Positions 10,086-47,282 of a stretch of DNA of 64,000 bases are shown piece after piece. Under the pieces are notes generated by a model. That model did not search any database. It was not told the origin of the DNA and saw nothing but the letters and a program-made list of their open reading frames with translations. Source of the stretch: an uncultured Fibrobacter sp. (GTDB lineage Bacteria; Fibrobacterota; Fibrobacteria; Fibrobacterales; Fibrobacteraceae); contig CAMJQW010000004.1 in assembly GCA_946408125.1 (NCBI GenBank), positions 1 to 64,000 on the forward strand, written 5' to 3'. Made by a program: the position numbers and the translations under genes. The first letter of the stretch is position 1; every line of letters begins with the position of its first letter.

Positions 10086-10271
10086 TCGCGAAGCCCGGCT
10101 CCTTGCCCGATCGATTCTATTTGCAGACGCCGATGCACGGATGTGCACCGGTGTTTTGTATTGCCCGGACAATCTGCTCTTTTTTACCGAAAATGGGCGT
10201 TTTGCGGGTGTGAAAGCATGTGCGAAATTTTTTATTTGCTAGATTAAGGTTAAGAGTATCAAGGATATAAA

Positions 10272-11222
10272 ATGTCTTCGATAAATTTTGCAACAAGAGA
10301 AATTAGCTGTAAAGTGGTCTACTACGGGCCTGGCCTAAGCGGAAAGACGACGAATCTGCAGGTCATCCACCAGAAGATGCCCCAGGACAAGCGCACCGAC
10401 ATGGTCTCGCTTGCGACCGAAGGCGACCGCACTTTGTTCTTTGACTTCCTTCCGTTGAATCTTGGCGATATCAAGGGCTTCAAGACCCGTTTCCAACTTT
10501 ATACGGTTCCTGGCCAGGTGTATTACAACAGTACCCGTAAGTTGGTGCTCCGCGGTGTGGATGGAATTGTCTTTGTGGCCGACTCCCAGCGTTCGCGTCA
10601 GGCCGAAAATATCGAGAGCCTCCAGAACCTGCGTCAGAACTTGCAGGACTACGGCATGGACCTTGACGATATGCCCTTCGTGCTCCAGTACAACAAGCGC
10701 GACATGGACAACGTGTTTTCCCTCGACGAGATGAACGCGGAACTGAATCCGCGCAACGTCCCGTTCTTCCCGGCGACCGCCCATAACGGCAAGGGCGTGG
10801 TCACTACGCTCAAGACGATCGCCATGCTCGTTATCGAGAAGTTTAACGTGAAGCAGGGCTTCCTCCGCAAGGCTGCGGAGAGCGTGAACAATACCGGCGT
10901 GCACGACGTCTCCCTCACCAAGGAAGGCGTTTCCGTGACCCAGTCCGCGCCGAAGCCGGCTGCGGCTCCCGCGGCTAGCGCACCTGCCGCGTCCCCGTTC
11001 AAGATGCCCTCCTTTGCGGCCAAGCCTCCTGTCGGAGGAGCACCGTCTGGCGGTAGTGGTTCGGGGTTGTTCCAGAAAGGAGTTACGTCCTCGCCCTTTG
11101 GTCGCCCCCGCGCGGCGGCCCCGGTTTCCCGCATGCCGACCTTCGGCCGTGTCGTCGACAAGCCGCAGGAAGCCGCTGATGACGAAATCGAATTGCGTCC
11201 GTACGTTCCCAAGAAGAAGTAG
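10272..11222 (+). CDS. mglA: MglA-like small GTPase with Pro/Ala/Gly-rich C-terminal extension
   Basis: P-loop YYGPGLSGKTTNLQ, MglA-type YTVPGQVYYNSTRKLVLRGVDGIVFVADSQ, NKRD; about 110 aa low-complexity tail. Confidence 0.93.
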   Translation: MSSINFATREISCKVVYYGPGLSGKTTNLQVIHQKMPQDKRTDMVSLATEGDRTLFFDFLPLNLGDIKGFKTRFQLYTVPGQVYYNSTRKLVLRGVDGIVFVADSQRSRQAENIESLQNLRQNLQDYGMDLDDMPFVLQYNKRDMDNVFSLDEMNAELNPRNVPFFPATAHNGKGVVTTLKTIAMLVIEKFNVKQGFLRKAAESVNNTGVHDVSLTKEGVSVTQSAPKPAAAPAASAPAASPFKMPSFAAKPPVGGAPSGGSGSGLFQKGVTSSPFGRPRAAAPVSRMPTFGRVVDKPQEAADDEIELRPYVPKKK

Positions 11223-11233
11223 GTTCTAGCGAA

Positions 11234-11650
11234 ATGAGCGATTTTACCATTTATTCTGATGATGTTGGAAAAGTTCGCCGTTTGATGGTTGCGTACCAGG
11301 CGAGCGTGAAGGCAGAATACATCGTGCTCTGCCATCGCGACGGTTCGATCATTGCGGAAGTCGGTTCCCTCGGGATCGACGCGACTCCGCTCGCCGTCCT
11401 CAGCACGGCGTCGTTCGACTCCGCGAAGCAGGTCGGCCTGATGCTCGGTGGCGAGACTTTCCAGTCCGTTTCCTATTCCGGCGAGAACCGTTCGATCTAC
11501 ATTTCGCCCGTGGACGAGGCCCTACTGCTGGTGCAGGTATTCCCCGGTTCACGCCTTCCGAACCGCATCGACGACTTCAACCGCCTGTTGGTCGAGAAGC
11601 TGGTGGACGCGGTCCCCGCATTCACCCAGAACACGAGTAAGCTTATCTAG
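11234..11650 (+). CDS. mglB: MglB/roadblock-LC7 domain protein
   Basis: Roadblock-like (KAEYIVLCHRDGSIIAEVGS...ALLLVQVFPG), directly downstream of mglA. Confidence 0.85.
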   Translation: MSDFTIYSDDVGKVRRLMVAYQASVKAEYIVLCHRDGSIIAEVGSLGIDATPLAVLSTASFDSAKQVGLMLGGETFQSVSYSGENRSIYISPVDEALLLVQVFPGSRLPNRIDDFNRLLVEKLVDAVPAFTQNTSKLI

Positions 11651-11661
11651 CGGGAGTTCCT

Positions 11662-12177
11662 GTGGCTGGCATTCCGCCACTTCGCAATCTTAGAAAGACG
11701 ACCGTTCTGGTGCTGGCCGTCTTTGCCGCTTTTTTTGTCCATCGCTTTATTGATATCTGGATTGAGGACCACGCTGTCGACGACTCCGTGGAGACGGAGT
11801 TGTCGCCCGCGCAGAGCGTTGTCTGCCGCAACGTCGTGCGCGGCACGCCTTTCGGCGTGGACAGCGTGTTCGACGAGACGACCCGCCTTTATTTCTATTC
11901 GACGATTTCGAATACGGCGCAGTTCGCGAAGGATACGCTCAAGCACATCTGGTTCATGGGCACCGACACCATACAGGTGCTGCCCTGCGAAGTGAAGTCC
12001 GCCGACAGCAGGATGGGAATCGAATCCAAGAACGAATCGTCCCAGTCCGAACTCGGCGTCTGCCATACGGAGATTTCGCCCAAGCTCCTGAAGCCGGGCG
12101 AGTGGAGCGTAGACCTGGTCGCGGGCCGCAAGTTGCTTTCGAGCAAGCAGTTCATGATCGATTCCGCCGGTAGGTAG
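11662..12177 (+). CDS. single-TM protein with DUF2914-like domain
   Basis: N-terminal TM; TRLYFYSTISNTAQFAKDTLKHIWFMGTDTIQ...LKPGEWSVDLVAGRKLL resembles DUF2914. Confidence 0.7.
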   Translation: MAGIPPLRNLRKTTVLVLAVFAAFFVHRFIDIWIEDHAVDDSVETELSPAQSVVCRNVVRGTPFGVDSVFDETTRLYFYSTISNTAQFAKDTLKHIWFMGTDTIQVLPCEVKSADSRMGIESKNESSQSELGVCHTEISPKLLKPGEWSVDLVAGRKLLSSKQFMIDSAGR

Positions 12178-12182
12178 CTCCT

Positions 12183-15098
12183 ATGCGCGGGGCGGTCTGG
12201 CTCAAGGCGGTTATCGTCGCGCTTGCCTTTGGCGAATCCTTCGCCATGGACATCGATTCCCTGCCCGTATGGAATCCCGATTACCTAGTGCAGAACAAGA
12301 CGGTCGCAGAAGCTGCCGCCCGTAGCGACAGTTCGTCGTCGAAACTCGAGACGCATGGTTACAAGACGATGCAGGTGACCGTGGGCGATGGCGGTACGCA
12401 AGTGGACCAGGAACTGCGCCTCTCGATACAGGGATTCGTCGGCGACAGTGTATACATCGATGCCTTGCTGAACGACGTGGACCGCCGCGCGGGCGACCAG
12501 ACGACGGCAACGCTACAGGAAGTGGACCGCATTTACTTTCGTGCGGAATCGAAGCACTGGATGGTGCACCTGGGGGACCTGACCTGGAAAGACGACAACA
12601 TGGGGCTATTCTCGTTGGAACGCTCCACGCTCGGCGCCATGGCCGGGCTCCGCGCAGGCTATACCGAAGTGCGCGGCGCCGCGGGCACGGACCGCACTGA
12701 CCGCAGGACCGTCGTGATGAACGGTGTGAGCGGACAGCGCGACGGCTATGCGGTCAGCGGCGATGGCGCCTACCTCTCGCTTGTCCCGGAATCGGAAACG
12801 GTCTGGGTAAACGGGAACAAGCTTACGCGCGGTAAGGATTACGAAATGAATTATGCCGGCGGCCTGCTCGATTTCAGGGGACCGAAGGTTCCCGGCCCCG
12901 ACGACGAGATCCGTATCGAGTACGATTCGTACGAAGACGAGAATATCTTTAATTTGTATGCAGCGAAGGCGAAGTACAGGCATCCGAACCTCTACTTGGA
13001 TATGTCGGGATTCCGTCTGGAAAATGATCGCGACCGCTTGAAACGCGGCGTGTGGACCGATGACGATTATGCGGCGCTCAAGTCCGATAATGGCGGGGAG
13101 CTCTTCCGCTCGAACGATTCCCTGCCCGGTGGCGTCGATTCCCTTTCGCCGCTTACGAGGCCCGAACGTGTGGAGCGCTTCGGCGCGCGCATGCGTATGC
13201 AGGCCGACAGGCGTTATTATGCCGACCTGGAAATCGCGATGAACCGTCAGGATACAAACACGGTCTCGCACGATATCGACGGGCCCGAGGGACGCGCCTA
13301 CCGGTGGTTCTTGACGACAGACTCCTCGGAACAGATGAAGAAATTTCCCGTGGCCTTCTCGGTTTACGGTAACTTTATTGAAGACGGCTATCGTGCCGAC
13401 ATGTTCCAGGGCGGAGACCAGGACTGGAATGCCTACAGGCTCCTGGATGAATGGGATCTCGACAGTTCCGCGATTACGTCGGGTGACCTGCGGCACGATG
13501 AATTTGGCATGCGCACCCGCTTAGCCACGGGTTGGTACACCAATGCCCTCTGGGGATACCGTCAGGGAGAACATGAAGACTGGAATTCTTCGCGTGCGAA
13601 ACTCTCGCTCGTCCACAAGACGCGTGAGGTTTCGAGCGATGTGGGCGTGGTGCGCGTGGCGAGTGTGCAGGAGGTGGAAAAGGAACGCTACCAGACGCTG
13701 GGCGGCGCGGAATACCTGCAGGGATTGTGGCGCCCGTTCGGGAACTTCGACCTGCGCTACACGCGGATTACGGATGCTATCGATGGTGCGGATGACGCGG
13801 TTGAAGACGAAATCGCGTATGGGAAGACGGGAACCGGTTTTCAGCTGGTGGGAAACCGCTGGAACGCGAGCGAAGGCGTCGAGGAAAAGCTTGCGAAACG
13901 CAGGGGCGATACTTATGGCGACGAATGGTCCGATTCGTTGCGCTCGATTGTGTGGACGCAGACCGCCGAATACCGCGGGCACCGATTCGGCATCGAGCAT
14001 TTCTTGCAGTACGAACGCAGGAAACTCGATTCCTCGGATGCGGAACATTCCTGGATGGGAAACGTGGATGCGCATGTCGCGGACGACGATCGCGGTATTT
14101 CGGGAAACGTGAGCTACAAGCTGGGACTTACGGAGGAGCAGACTTATACTCCCGTCTACAAGGCGGTGGCGCCCGGTACGGGCGACGTGCGTTACGATAG
14201 CCTTACGGGAACGTTCATCGAGGATGTCGACAACGGCGACTTCGTTTACGAGGGCATGGGCCGCAACGATTCCGTCGGGGCGGTGCGCGCCTCCAATGCG
14301 GCGTTCTCCATCGACATGGAATGGGTTCCCGGTTTGAGCTTCGGCGTGCGCCGGGGAATCCTGCGCGATATTACGCTGGGCGGCATGTATAGCGCATCGG
14401 GCGAGGACACGACCGGAAAGAAGTTGTTCTTCCCGCCGGCAAGCCCGCATCAGTTGCGGAAGGTTACCTCCGGTACGGTTTCGTGGGAAGCTCGCATGGG
14501 ATGGACGCATCCTTCGGGATTATATGCGACGTACAAGCCGGGTGCCGATTACGACAAAAAACTCAGTTCCATGGCGTATTTCGAGACGGTATTCCATCAC
14601 AATGTGGATGCAGGATTCCAGATAAACGAAAGCCACTTTGTCGGTGCGACGTTCCTCCTCGAACAGGAAGAACTGCAGGCGATGCAGGATCTGGAATGGG
14701 ATACCCGCGACTATTCCGGACGTTACCGCTACGATTTCCTGGAAGCGTTCTACGTGCAGCCGGGAGGCCGCTACCGCGTGGGCGAGGGCTCTGACGATGC
14801 TGGCTACGAATTCGACGCTTACCTCTGGGAAGCCTCTCTGCGGCTCGGTTACGCGAAGGACCGCATTGGCGACGCGTTCGTGCAGTTCTCGGCAGTTCAG
14901 ATGGAAAGCGGCGACGATGTCGTGCCGTACCAGATGATGTCGGGTTACAGCGAAGGGCGCACTTACCGTTTCGAGGCGTCCGCGTCCGTGGATATCAATG
15001 ACTTTATCTCGCTTGGGCTGCATTACGTGCTGCGGTTCGGCGATGCGGAAGAGAATGTCTTCCAGAAGCTGAGTACGGAAGCGAGGGCGGTGTTCTGA
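12183..15098 (+). CDS. large putative outer-membrane beta-barrel/surface protein (971 aa)
   Basis: Signal peptide; alternating aromatic/charged beta-strand pattern; VWVNGNKLTRGKDYEMNYAGGLLDF...IRIEYDSYED motif; C-terminal aromatic residue. Confidence 0.65.
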   Translation: MRGAVWLKAVIVALAFGESFAMDIDSLPVWNPDYLVQNKTVAEAAARSDSSSSKLETHGYKTMQVTVGDGGTQVDQELRLSIQGFVGDSVYIDALLNDVDRRAGDQTTATLQEVDRIYFRAESKHWMVHLGDLTWKDDNMGLFSLERSTLGAMAGLRAGYTEVRGAAGTDRTDRRTVVMNGVSGQRDGYAVSGDGAYLSLVPESETVWVNGNKLTRGKDYEMNYAGGLLDFRGPKVPGPDDEIRIEYDSYEDENIFNLYAAKAKYRHPNLYLDMSGFRLENDRDRLKRGVWTDDDYAALKSDNGGELFRSNDSLPGGVDSLSPLTRPERVERFGARMRMQADRRYYADLEIAMNRQDTNTVSHDIDGPEGRAYRWFLTTDSSEQMKKFPVAFSVYGNFIEDGYRADMFQGGDQDWNAYRLLDEWDLDSSAITSGDLRHDEFGMRTRLATGWYTNALWGYRQGEHEDWNSSRAKLSLVHKTREVSSDVGVVRVASVQEVEKERYQTLGGAEYLQGLWRPFGNFDLRYTRITDAIDGADDAVEDEIAYGKTGTGFQLVGNRWNASEGVEEKLAKRRGDTYGDEWSDSLRSIVWTQTAEYRGHRFGIEHFLQYERRKLDSSDAEHSWMGNVDAHVADDDRGISGNVSYKLGLTEEQTYTPVYKAVAPGTGDVRYDSLTGTFIEDVDNGDFVYEGMGRNDSVGAVRASNAAFSIDMEWVPGLSFGVRRGILRDITLGGMYSASGEDTTGKKLFFPPASPHQLRKVTSGTVSWEARMGWTHPSGLYATYKPGADYDKKLSSMAYFETVFHHNVDAGFQINESHFVGATFLLEQEELQAMQDLEWDTRDYSGRYRYDFLEAFYVQPGGRYRVGEGSDDAGYEFDAYLWEASLRLGYAKDRIGDAFVQFSAVQMESGDDVVPYQMMSGYSEGRTYRFEASASVDINDFISLGLHYVLRFGDAEENVFQKLSTEARAVF

Positions 15099-16480
15099 TG
15101 TGGAAGATCGTATACATATTGCTCCTTGTGGCTTTCGCGCTGGCGAAGGGCGGGGAGGTGTGTTCCGTCGACAGCATCGCATGGGTCGGGGAACACGACG
15201 CCTTCGACGAATCGCAGATGGCGCCTGCCCGCGACAATCCCTGCGATGCCTGGAAACCCCTTGCCGCGAAACTGGAACGCTACTACGAGGACAAGGGCTT
15301 TGTCGCGGTGCGCGTCCTTGGGAACCTGCGAGGGGAAGGCCCGTCGCGTCTGCTTGAACTGCGCCTGGAACGCGGCCCCGGTTACGTGTGGGCCGCTCCC
15401 GAAAATTTGGATAATGGCGGTACGAAAGCGGAAGTGTTCCGCAAGTTGAGCGGGCTCGAGGAGGGCGATCCGGTATCGCTTTCGGACCTCGAACGCTCCG
15501 AACGCAAGCTCGCACGACTCGGTTACTACGAGATGACTGCTCCGACGAAGCTCTTCCGCGATGCTTCCCGCAACCGCATCATTCCGGCATTCAGCATGCG
15601 CAGGGCGAACGTCTCGCGCGCCGAGGGCCTGCTGACTTATTCGAGCGAGGACAATGTCTGGGAAGGCCTTGTGGACGTAGAACTTTACAACATTGCGGGA
15701 ACGGCGCGCGACCTGATGCTGGAAGGCTTTTCGGGCGAGGATTCCCGTCACCTGACGGGCAGCTACAAGGAACCCTGGATTTTCGGGACTTCCTGGAACG
15801 CGGTCGTGCGCGGTAGCTTTGACGAGGATTCGGAAATTTCGGAAAAGACTGCCGTGGGTGAACTCGGTGTCACGCGCGACATCGGCTTCGACTTTATGTT
15901 GGGCGTTTTCCTCGGGATAAGCAATGACGGAAAGCTTTCCTCGTTCGAGATGTCCTACGTGTCGCTCGACAGGTTCATCTTGCCGCGCAGCGGGTGGCGC
16001 ATGGACGGTACCCTCGTATGGAAGATGGACCGCCCCGATTCTCTCGACAACTTCTTGAAGGCGAACGCCCGTATGGTCGCCTACATGCCGCTGTACGGGA
16101 ACTTCATTTCGCGCTTTACCGGGGCTGCGGGAGGAGTATTCCCGACCGATGCGACCCTCGGTCGGATGGACCTTTTTGCGTTAGGCGGGTTGGAAAGCTT
16201 CAAGGGAATGCAGTACCGCATGCTTCGTAGCCGCTCTTTCGGATTCTCGGAATTCGCGCTATTGTGGCAGGACGGTTATGACTTGAGCGTGGAAGTGTTC
16301 TATCAGCCGGGACTGTACCGCCGCATGAATCCGGGACACGGCTGGGCCCGCGAGCAGAATTACGGTCTTGGCTTTACGCAGTACCGGGGCAACTGGAGTA
16401 TCAATCTGTATTACGCCCTGCGCAACGGCTGCAACTACCTCGACGGCATTTTGGGCTTTGGGGTGAAAACGCTGTTCTAG
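15098..16480 (+). CDS. POTRA + Omp85/BamA-TamA-like outer membrane protein
   Basis: Signal peptide, POTRA-like segment (LERYYEDKGFVAVRV...LSGLEEGDPVSLSDLERSERKLARLGYYE), barrel ending ...GVKTLF. Confidence 0.75.
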   Translation: MWKIVYILLLVAFALAKGGEVCSVDSIAWVGEHDAFDESQMAPARDNPCDAWKPLAAKLERYYEDKGFVAVRVLGNLRGEGPSRLLELRLERGPGYVWAAPENLDNGGTKAEVFRKLSGLEEGDPVSLSDLERSERKLARLGYYEMTAPTKLFRDASRNRIIPAFSMRRANVSRAEGLLTYSSEDNVWEGLVDVELYNIAGTARDLMLEGFSGEDSRHLTGSYKEPWIFGTSWNAVVRGSFDEDSEISEKTAVGELGVTRDIGFDFMLGVFLGISNDGKLSSFEMSYVSLDRFILPRSGWRMDGTLVWKMDRPDSLDNFLKANARMVAYMPLYGNFISRFTGAAGGVFPTDATLGRMDLFALGGLESFKGMQYRMLRSRSFGFSEFALLWQDGYDLSVEVFYQPGLYRRMNPGHGWAREQNYGLGFTQYRGNWSINLYYALRNGCNYLDGILGFGVKTLF

Positions 16481-45977: not shown

Positions 45978-47282
45978 ATGGTAAAAATTGTAAAAACAGG
46001 ATGCCTCGCCTTGAGCCTGTCCGCAGCGCTTGCCTTTGCGGATGCGCCCGTAGAAGGCTGCGCCGACGGTGCGGTGGTTTCCTCGATATCTTTCGAGGGA
46101 CTTGAACACACGAAGTCCCGCGTGGTGGAACGCGAGCTCCTGAACAAGGTGGGCGAGCCCTTCTCCGCCAAGAATTTCGAGGCAGAGAAGCTCCGCCTGC
46201 AGGACCTGGACTTGTTTACCGAGGTCTCCGTTTCTTGCGAAGGCTCGAAACTGACGTACCGCTTCAAGGAAATCTTCCGCTGGATTCCCGCGCCCGCGGG
46301 CAAGAAGACGGACCGCGACGGCCTGATGCTCGGGCTTGCGCTTGCGAACCTGAACGTGCTGGGAGAAGACATTCGTGCCGAGGTCCAGTATCGTACGACG
46401 GTTGATCCCTTCTTCGACAAGAACGAGTATGCGTTCTATGCGAGCTCTCCCTATTTTCTCGGATTCCCGCTCGGGTGGAACTTCGAATTCCTCGTGACCG
46501 ACAGCTACGACAATATCCGCGGCTTCCAGGAGAACAGCATCTTGCTCGATCTGGATTTGGATTACAAGGTGTTGCCGCACCTGTCGCTGCTATGGACGGT
46601 TGCCGGACGCGACCTGCAGGATGCAGCCTTCTTGCCGGAACTGGGAATCGGTTTCGCTTTCGATTACCGCGACAGCAAGCTCGATACCCGCAGGGGCGTG
46701 TACTTCGAGTATATGCTGACGCATGTGGGCGAGGGCGACGACAGCGACAGCGACTGCGACGTGTCCAATGGCGAAAGCTGCCGCGGCATGGGTGGCGAGA
46801 ATTTCTGGGAATACCTGACGGATGCCCGCGCCTACTTTACGCTCGGTAAGTTCGTGACGGGTGCGACGGCGCTGGTGCGCTTGCGTCCGGGCGATGTGGA
46901 ATTCTACGATTACTACTACCACGGGGGTGCAAATACTTTCCGCGGTCACGAGGCCGACTCGGGCTCTCTCGGTGTCCACGAGGCGCTCCTTACGCTTGAG
47001 GAAAGGTTCGTGTTGCTGGAACGCCGTTCGGCCAGTGTCGCCGGCGTGAACTTCTTCTATGGAGTGCAGTTGGTGGCCGGTCTCGATGGAAGCCTGCTCT
47101 GGGACAAGGGACATCCAGGCTGGGATGACTATGAGGGTGCCGTCTACGGCGGCGTTCACCTGGTAATCCCGGCGCTCGACCGCATCCGCTTCGAGGTCGG
47201 TTATAGCCCTGACAAGGGCGAGCCGGTGTTCTATTTTGGCCTGTTCGACAAGGTGACGTCTTCTAGATGGCGTAGTAGATGA
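45978..47282 (+). CDS. POTRA-containing Omp85/BamA-like outer membrane protein
   Basis: POTRA VVSSISFEGLEHTKSRVVERELLNKVGEPFSAKNFEAEKLRLQDLDLFTEVSV; barrel with GANTFRGHE...; acidic loop GEGDDSDSDCDVSNGESCRGMGGE. Confidence 0.83.
   Translation: MVKIVKTGCLALSLSAALAFADAPVEGCADGAVVSSISFEGLEHTKSRVVERELLNKVGEPFSAKNFEAEKLRLQDLDLFTEVSVSCEGSKLTYRFKEIFRWIPAPAGKKTDRDGLMLGLALANLNVLGEDIRAEVQYRTTVDPFFDKNEYAFYASSPYFLGFPLGWNFEFLVTDSYDNIRGFQENSILLDLDLDYKVLPHLSLLWTVAGRDLQDAAFLPELGIGFAFDYRDSKLDTRRGVYFEYMLTHVGEGDDSDSDCDVSNGESCRGMGGENFWEYLTDARAYFTLGKFVTGATALVRLRPGDVEFYDYYYHGGANTFRGHEADSGSLGVHEALLTLEERFVLLERRSASVAGVNFFYGVQLVAGLDGSLLWDKGHPGWDDYEGAVYGGVHLVIPALDRIRFEVGYSPDKGEPVFYFGLFDKVTSSRWRSR

Follow-up and report, generated by a model that had tools for sequence, protein, structure and literature searches.

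Why are the genes of a cytoplasmic polarity switch packed together with those of outer-membrane proteins in Fibrobacter? MglA drives gliding in Myxococcus and is known to act on type IV pili and gliding motors. Fibrobacter, called non-motile, ranks among the leading cellulose degraders of the gut, and its contact with fibre is poorly understood. The question was raised by a locus in the window, a stretch of 64,000 nucleotides from an uncultured Fibrobacter sp. (contig CAMJQW010000004.1), in which mglA and mglB are followed by genes for a predicted membrane protein (P3), a very large predicted beta-barrel protein (BigOMP) and an Omp85-type protein. Genuine MglA/MglB and an undescribed, phylum-wide barrel in one operon provide concrete genes for tests of polarity and attachment.

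Layout of the cluster and its products

The five open reading frames lie head to tail on the forward strand with gaps of 11, 11, 5 and -1 bp (Table 1). Coordinates and strand agreed with the packing described in the initial annotation, and we infer co-transcription of the genes from mglA through the Omp85 gene. In an alignment of 58 intergenic sequences the hairpin and T run 3' of rpsT (position read off the sequence) were conserved, as was the probable ribosome-binding site of mglA; the hairpin folded both in the window sequence and in those of several relatives. TTTTTnCTAGATTA was among the best-conserved blocks 5' of mglA in this alignment. The conserved element CTAGATTA is a possible -10 region of a putative operon promoter; it was not listed by a sigma-70 consensus scan of the window. 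An Rfam scan of the window gave no matches.

Table 1. Positions of the features discussed (window numbering)
Feature	Position	Strand	Length	Remark
hairpin CCGATGCAC-GGAT-GTGCACCGG, then T-rich tail	10130..10157	+		probable rpsT (S20) terminator
promoter-like element CTAGATTA	10239..10246	+		possible -10 region of the operon
AAGGA	10261..10265	+		probable mglA ribosome-binding site
mglA	10272-11222	+	316 aa	
mglB	11234-11650	+	138 aa	
P3	11662-12177	+	171 aa	
BigOMP	12183-15098	+	971 aa	
SprA-type module of BigOMP	12774..12995	+		residues 198-271; hhalign; TIGR04189 weak match there
Omp85 gene	15098-16480	+	460 aa	
second Omp85-type protein	45978-47282	+	434 aa	

The mglA product aligned without gaps over positions 1-191 with M. 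xanthus MglA from the PDB (5ymx, E 2e-74), and the P-loop, the R53 finger, T78, Q82 and NKRD could all be read from its sequence. By these features it is a genuine MglA-family small GTPase of the Ras-like type with intact catalytic residues, as annotated. MglA of Fibrobacteres has been placed in Group 1 together with M. xanthus MglA (PMC4316618). The two systems have the same catalytic residues and a roadblock MglB partner. They differ in that the PDB chains of M. xanthus MglA comprise 195-203 aa whereas window MglA has an additional tail of about 120 aa with conserved motifs, ending in ELRPYVPKKK, and in that the window genes share one operon with outer-membrane proteins. The roadblock identity ascribed to the mglB product also stood: it matched Pfam Robl_LC7 (2e-8) and, weakly, MglB structures in the PDB (6h5b, 3e-4). 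It is a roadblock/LC7 protein that has diverged from characterised MglB, and is probably the GAP of MglA.

P3 had been called a membrane-anchored, DUF2914-like protein. The second part of this description finds support among the orthologues, 8 of 18 of which matched DUF2914 (PF11141, best 1e-5), but not in window P3 taken alone, which gave no Pfam match. The first part agreed with the AlphaFold2 model (pLDDT 80), in which a helix (12-38), the single predicted transmembrane segment, is followed by beta strands. Foldseek found 6oe6 as the best match and several Ig-like folds, and the invariant columns of the orthologue alignment included Cys109 and Cys134. P3 is thus modelled with a short cytoplasmic N-terminus (PPLRxLRKTT), one transmembrane helix and a periplasmic Ig-like domain of the DUF2914 type.

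BigOMP had no Pfam match above the cut-off, whether the window protein or 21 members of the family were searched, and none of the PDB sequences matched its profile. AlphaFold2 with 32 alignment rows (pLDDT 78.5, pTM 0.67) predicted an all-beta protein with about 40 strands, a count of the listed strands that does not imply closure into a single barrel. The model is in line with the predicted beta barrel of the initial annotation: BigOMP would be a giant outer-membrane barrel and, should the model be correct, could rank with the largest barrels made of a single chain. Among 50 listed Foldseek matches there were only generic barrels, with TM values of at most 0.27 by query length.

Comparison with SprA, which had been proposed at the outset, revealed one shared module in an otherwise different protein. 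Using hhalign, 74 columns of BigOMP aligned with SprA of Fibrobacterota (probability 96, E 4e-9) and the rest remained unaligned; the match to TIGR04189 reached 16.2 bits over 60 profile positions, below the cut-off of 200 bits. The motif VWVNGNKLTRGKDYEMNYAGGLLDF, quoted earlier as an OMP entry motif, is real and conserved, but it sits within this module of about 74 residues and is no known 'OMP entry' signal. BigOMP and the T9SS translocon protein SprA/Sov are both very large barrels (BigOMP by prediction); however, SprA has about 2,100-2,370 aa and does not align outside the module, and the global folds match poorly (TM 0.27/0.15). In relatives true SprA is encoded by a separate gene (frames of 2,100-2,370 aa, three of them confirmed by TIGR04189); it was not found in the source MAG, which is 81% complete. 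BigOMP as SprA could thus be ruled out. The same was true for LptD: no BigOMP member gave an LptD match, and LptD_2 (PF19838) was found at another locus in 9/9 genomes. (The first LptD model, PF04453, gave no match in 6 genomes, nor in the Bacteroides control, and was therefore uninformative.) BigOMP itself was detected in 145 of 168 genomes by a single-protein search and in all 62 non-core Fibrobacterota genomes by a broad profile search. It is a phylum-wide family of the Fibrobacterota for which there is no Pfam model.

The last gene encodes the POTRA/Omp85-like barrel that had been annotated: Pfam Omp85 (3.5e-11) and POTRA (4.9e-6) both scored above the cut-off, the BamA model TIGR03303 matched with 2e-16, and the profile matched BamA and TamA structures. 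The protein has an Omp85 barrel with POTRA in common with BamA/TamA, but differs from them by a short POTRA region and by KG[MYF] replacing RG[FY] as the L6 motif; all 16 aligned members carried KG[MYF], and the expected motif was absent. The R-to-K change is conservative and membership in the superfamily stands. It is the adjacency of the two genes that suggests an action of the Omp85 protein on BigOMP. Counting against such an action, no Omp85 gene adjoined BigOMP in family f5 and at the examined f7-f12 loci, and in genus g4 the two genes are apart. The source genome contains six Omp85 matches; a stronger match, a 970-aa frame, lies elsewhere in this genome. One of the six, a second Omp85-type protein, is also encoded in the window (Table 1).

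Conservation and history of the cluster

Of the 81 loci read in the family, 78 carried an intact mglA-mglB-P3-BigOMP block, the locus of F. intestinalis ATCC 43854 among them. (Of these 78 loci, 67 came from the named collection, and some genomes occur in both sets.) The whole five-gene block was read in 74 loci. The three exceptions were a contig fragment (L096) and two MAGs of the termite lineage (L122, L123). mglB adjoined mglA in 78/78 linked loci; gaps did not exceed 50 bp in 78/78 loci for mglA-mglB, in 78/78 for mglB-P3 and in 76/78 for P3-BigOMP. Because order and strand were held in this proportion of loci, the adjacency is not due to chance. The conserved neighbourhood, put forward in the initial annotation as a check, was found both in Fibrobacter and across its family. 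A downstream KAM gene was convergent in all 33 loci where it was seen. In genera g3 and g8, whose BigOMP proteins showed 27-29% identity, the DegT, KAM and EFP neighbours were not found, and the order S20-mglA-mglB-P3-BigOMP-Omp85 was retained.

Outside this family the two halves were mostly separate. In f4, f5 and f7-f11 the examined mglAB loci were separate from BigOMP, with rpsT close to several of these loci, and in f3, f4 and f14 BigOMP and the Omp85 gene were adjacent without mgl genes. In one genome (G155) the order BigOMP-Omp85, KAM, EFP was that of the right side of the window. The separate blocks across the phylum, together with this order, make the Fibrobacter operon look like a fusion of two older blocks. 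In the sister family f2, where no one contig runs from a whole mglA to BigOMP, linkage was read from a contig end (G041; the contigs of G042 break in the same region), which carried the MglA tail, mglB, BigOMP and the Omp85 gene, with no P3 between mglB and BigOMP. In the BigOMP tree the linked rows all grouped together (99/97), and g4, which lacks mgl genes, branched within this group; the long f2 row is placed with less certainty. The operon is a composite, formed once, in the common ancestor of f1 and f2, and broken once; it dates back to the ancestor of the order.

The tail of MglA differed with linkage. In linked lineages it comprised 99-151 aa, the motif [EI]xLRPYxP was present in 76/76 complete MglA orthologues of the family, and the f2 tail at the contig end read ELRPYIPKKK. 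The unlinked MglA proteins of f4, f5 and f7-f11 had tails of roughly 230-630 aa without LRPY, which were of low complexity and mostly ended in a basic KGFxxKLFNK-like stretch. The ELRPYxPKKK end was found only where the operon exists. The change to a short tail coincides with operon formation and, as a single event, is a correlation only. In deep lineages (L132, L134-L136, L138) a conserved gene of about 340-385 aa, DUF4388/PATAN-like by eye, and a gene of about 700 aa lay between rpsT and mglA; PATAN neighbours of MglA have been described (PMC4316618).

The break occurred in g4, which we take to be the termite-gut lineage Fibromonadaceae. MglA was absent from 12/12 g4 genomes and MglB from the 9/9 searched. 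(For this search MglB, P3 and Omp85 were joined into a composite query, and matches were assigned by the query positions covered.) In four g4 loci (L229-L232) rpsT was directly followed by P3, at the place where mglAB would be; this junction is apparently what a deletion of mglAB left behind. P3, BigOMP and the Omp85 gene were retained in g4 at three separate loci, Omp85 having 379-396 aa in the four loci read. By-eye reading of the sequence indicated flagellar-type genes at g4 loci, for example a FlgK-like gene beside BigOMP. Flagella have been described in termite Fibromonadaceae and as lost in Fibrobacteraceae (PMC4704652). Since f7 genomes mostly have MglA, its loss does not simply track flagella. 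Among the matches listed for genus g15 of f4 and for the deep genomes G166 and G167 there was no MglA.

Proposed function of the composite operon

The composite operon is solid and conserved, and literature searches found no described system of this composition, as the initial annotation had stated; its function is a matter of inference. The reading that we favour, with a probability of about 0.5, is a single composite operon through which polarity switch, surface barrel and barrel-assembly partner are co-expressed. The mglA-mglB pair would have been placed upstream of the older BigOMP-Omp85 pair in the common ancestor of f1 and f2, and P3 lies between the two pairs in f1 only. From one promoter the MglA/MglB switch, the barrel and the assembly factor would then be made together on surfaces, for example on plant fibre. 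The Omp85 protein would aid folding of BigOMP into the outer membrane, and P3, anchored in the inner membrane, would occupy the periplasm between MglA/MglB and the barrel. A functional link between MglA and the barrel is plausible; physical contact is not claimed. The statistical weight for such a link is small because the co-location amounts to one origin and one loss. It also counts against this reading that either protein, MglA or BigOMP, occurs elsewhere unlinked to the other or in its absence.

The initial annotation had gone further and suggested a dedicated system connecting the GTPase to outer-membrane machinery. This suggestion could not be upheld. BigOMP occurs throughout the phylum with and without MglA, its pairing with Omp85 exists without mgl genes in three families, most of the other families have mglAB unlinked, and in one lineage mglAB was dropped and the other three genes were kept. 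That P3, BigOMP and Omp85 outlived the loss of mglAB there speaks against an obligate machine.

The same finding weighs against a trans-envelope machine, in which the tail of MglA-GTP would contact an inner-membrane partner such as P3 and reach BigOMP/Omp85, giving the GTPase direct control over the position or gating of the barrel. The predicted topology of P3 suits a connector, and the two tail types follow linkage. However, tail change and linkage represent one event, in f2 mglB is followed by BigOMP with no intervening P3, and the cytoplasmic PPLxxLRK segment of P3 was kept in g4 together with the three genes. Because this segment persists there without MglA, docking of MglA does not explain it, and the P3 motif as an MglA dock is unsupported. 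We regard such a machine as unlikely.

Similarly low is the probability that a rearrangement merely joined the blocks, which were then kept by chance or for a good promoter, the roles of the products being unrelated. The single origin, the independence of the two halves across the phylum and the resemblance of BigOMP to a general envelope component are consistent with this. On the other hand, the core was held together across the family while its flanks changed, and where mglAB was lost the remaining three genes sit at three separate loci.

It seems quite improbable that MglA was rewired in the f1/f2 ancestor, its tail being swapped for the ELRPYxPKKK end as mglAB joined BigOMP-Omp85. The switch would thereby have gained a direct envelope partner and would polarise the giant barrel at the surface, serving attachment to fibre or movement without flagella, and the lineage without mglAB would be the flagella-bearing termite Fibromonadaceae. 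Very unlikely is that BigOMP and Omp85, as a relative of SprA or a pair of the two-partner type, form a channel for secretion or translocation which MglAB places at a pole: the very large predicted barrel, its pairing with Omp85 and the 74-residue module speak for it, but sharing with the T9SS translocon is limited to that module in a poorly matching fold, relatives encode SprA separately, and no passenger gene was seen at the locus.

Candidate outputs of MglA

If switch and barrel are co-expressed from the composite operon as favoured above, MglA-GTP would direct surface machinery, either type IV pili or an Agl/Glt-like motor cluster elsewhere in the genome. According to published work (PMC4704652), every Fibrobacteres genome studied carries type IV pilus genes. 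On the other side, an earlier genome paper on F. succinogenes (Suen 2011, PMC3079729) reported neither known motility genes nor a complete set of pilus genes, nor any demonstrated motility.

Agl/Glt machinery in Fibrobacteres has been described as acquired by transfer (Luciano et al. 2011, PMC3169522). The source genome likewise contains an Agl/Glt-like cluster (L152:6276-15606), which encodes a TolQ-like protein, two TolR-like proteins, a protein with a TonB/GltG C-terminus (GltG C-terminus match 7e-18) and large TPR proteins. Unlike the genes described here it lies on another contig, unlinked to the mglAB operon, and no sequence link of the cluster to BigOMP or P3 was found. Loss of an Agl/Glt-like gene together with MglA was not seen: the TolR-like gene was kept in most g4 genomes. 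Gene order and annotation indicate that FSU_2396-2403 of F. succinogenes is likely the counterpart of this cluster; it includes proteins that are up-regulated on cellulose (PMC6851124).
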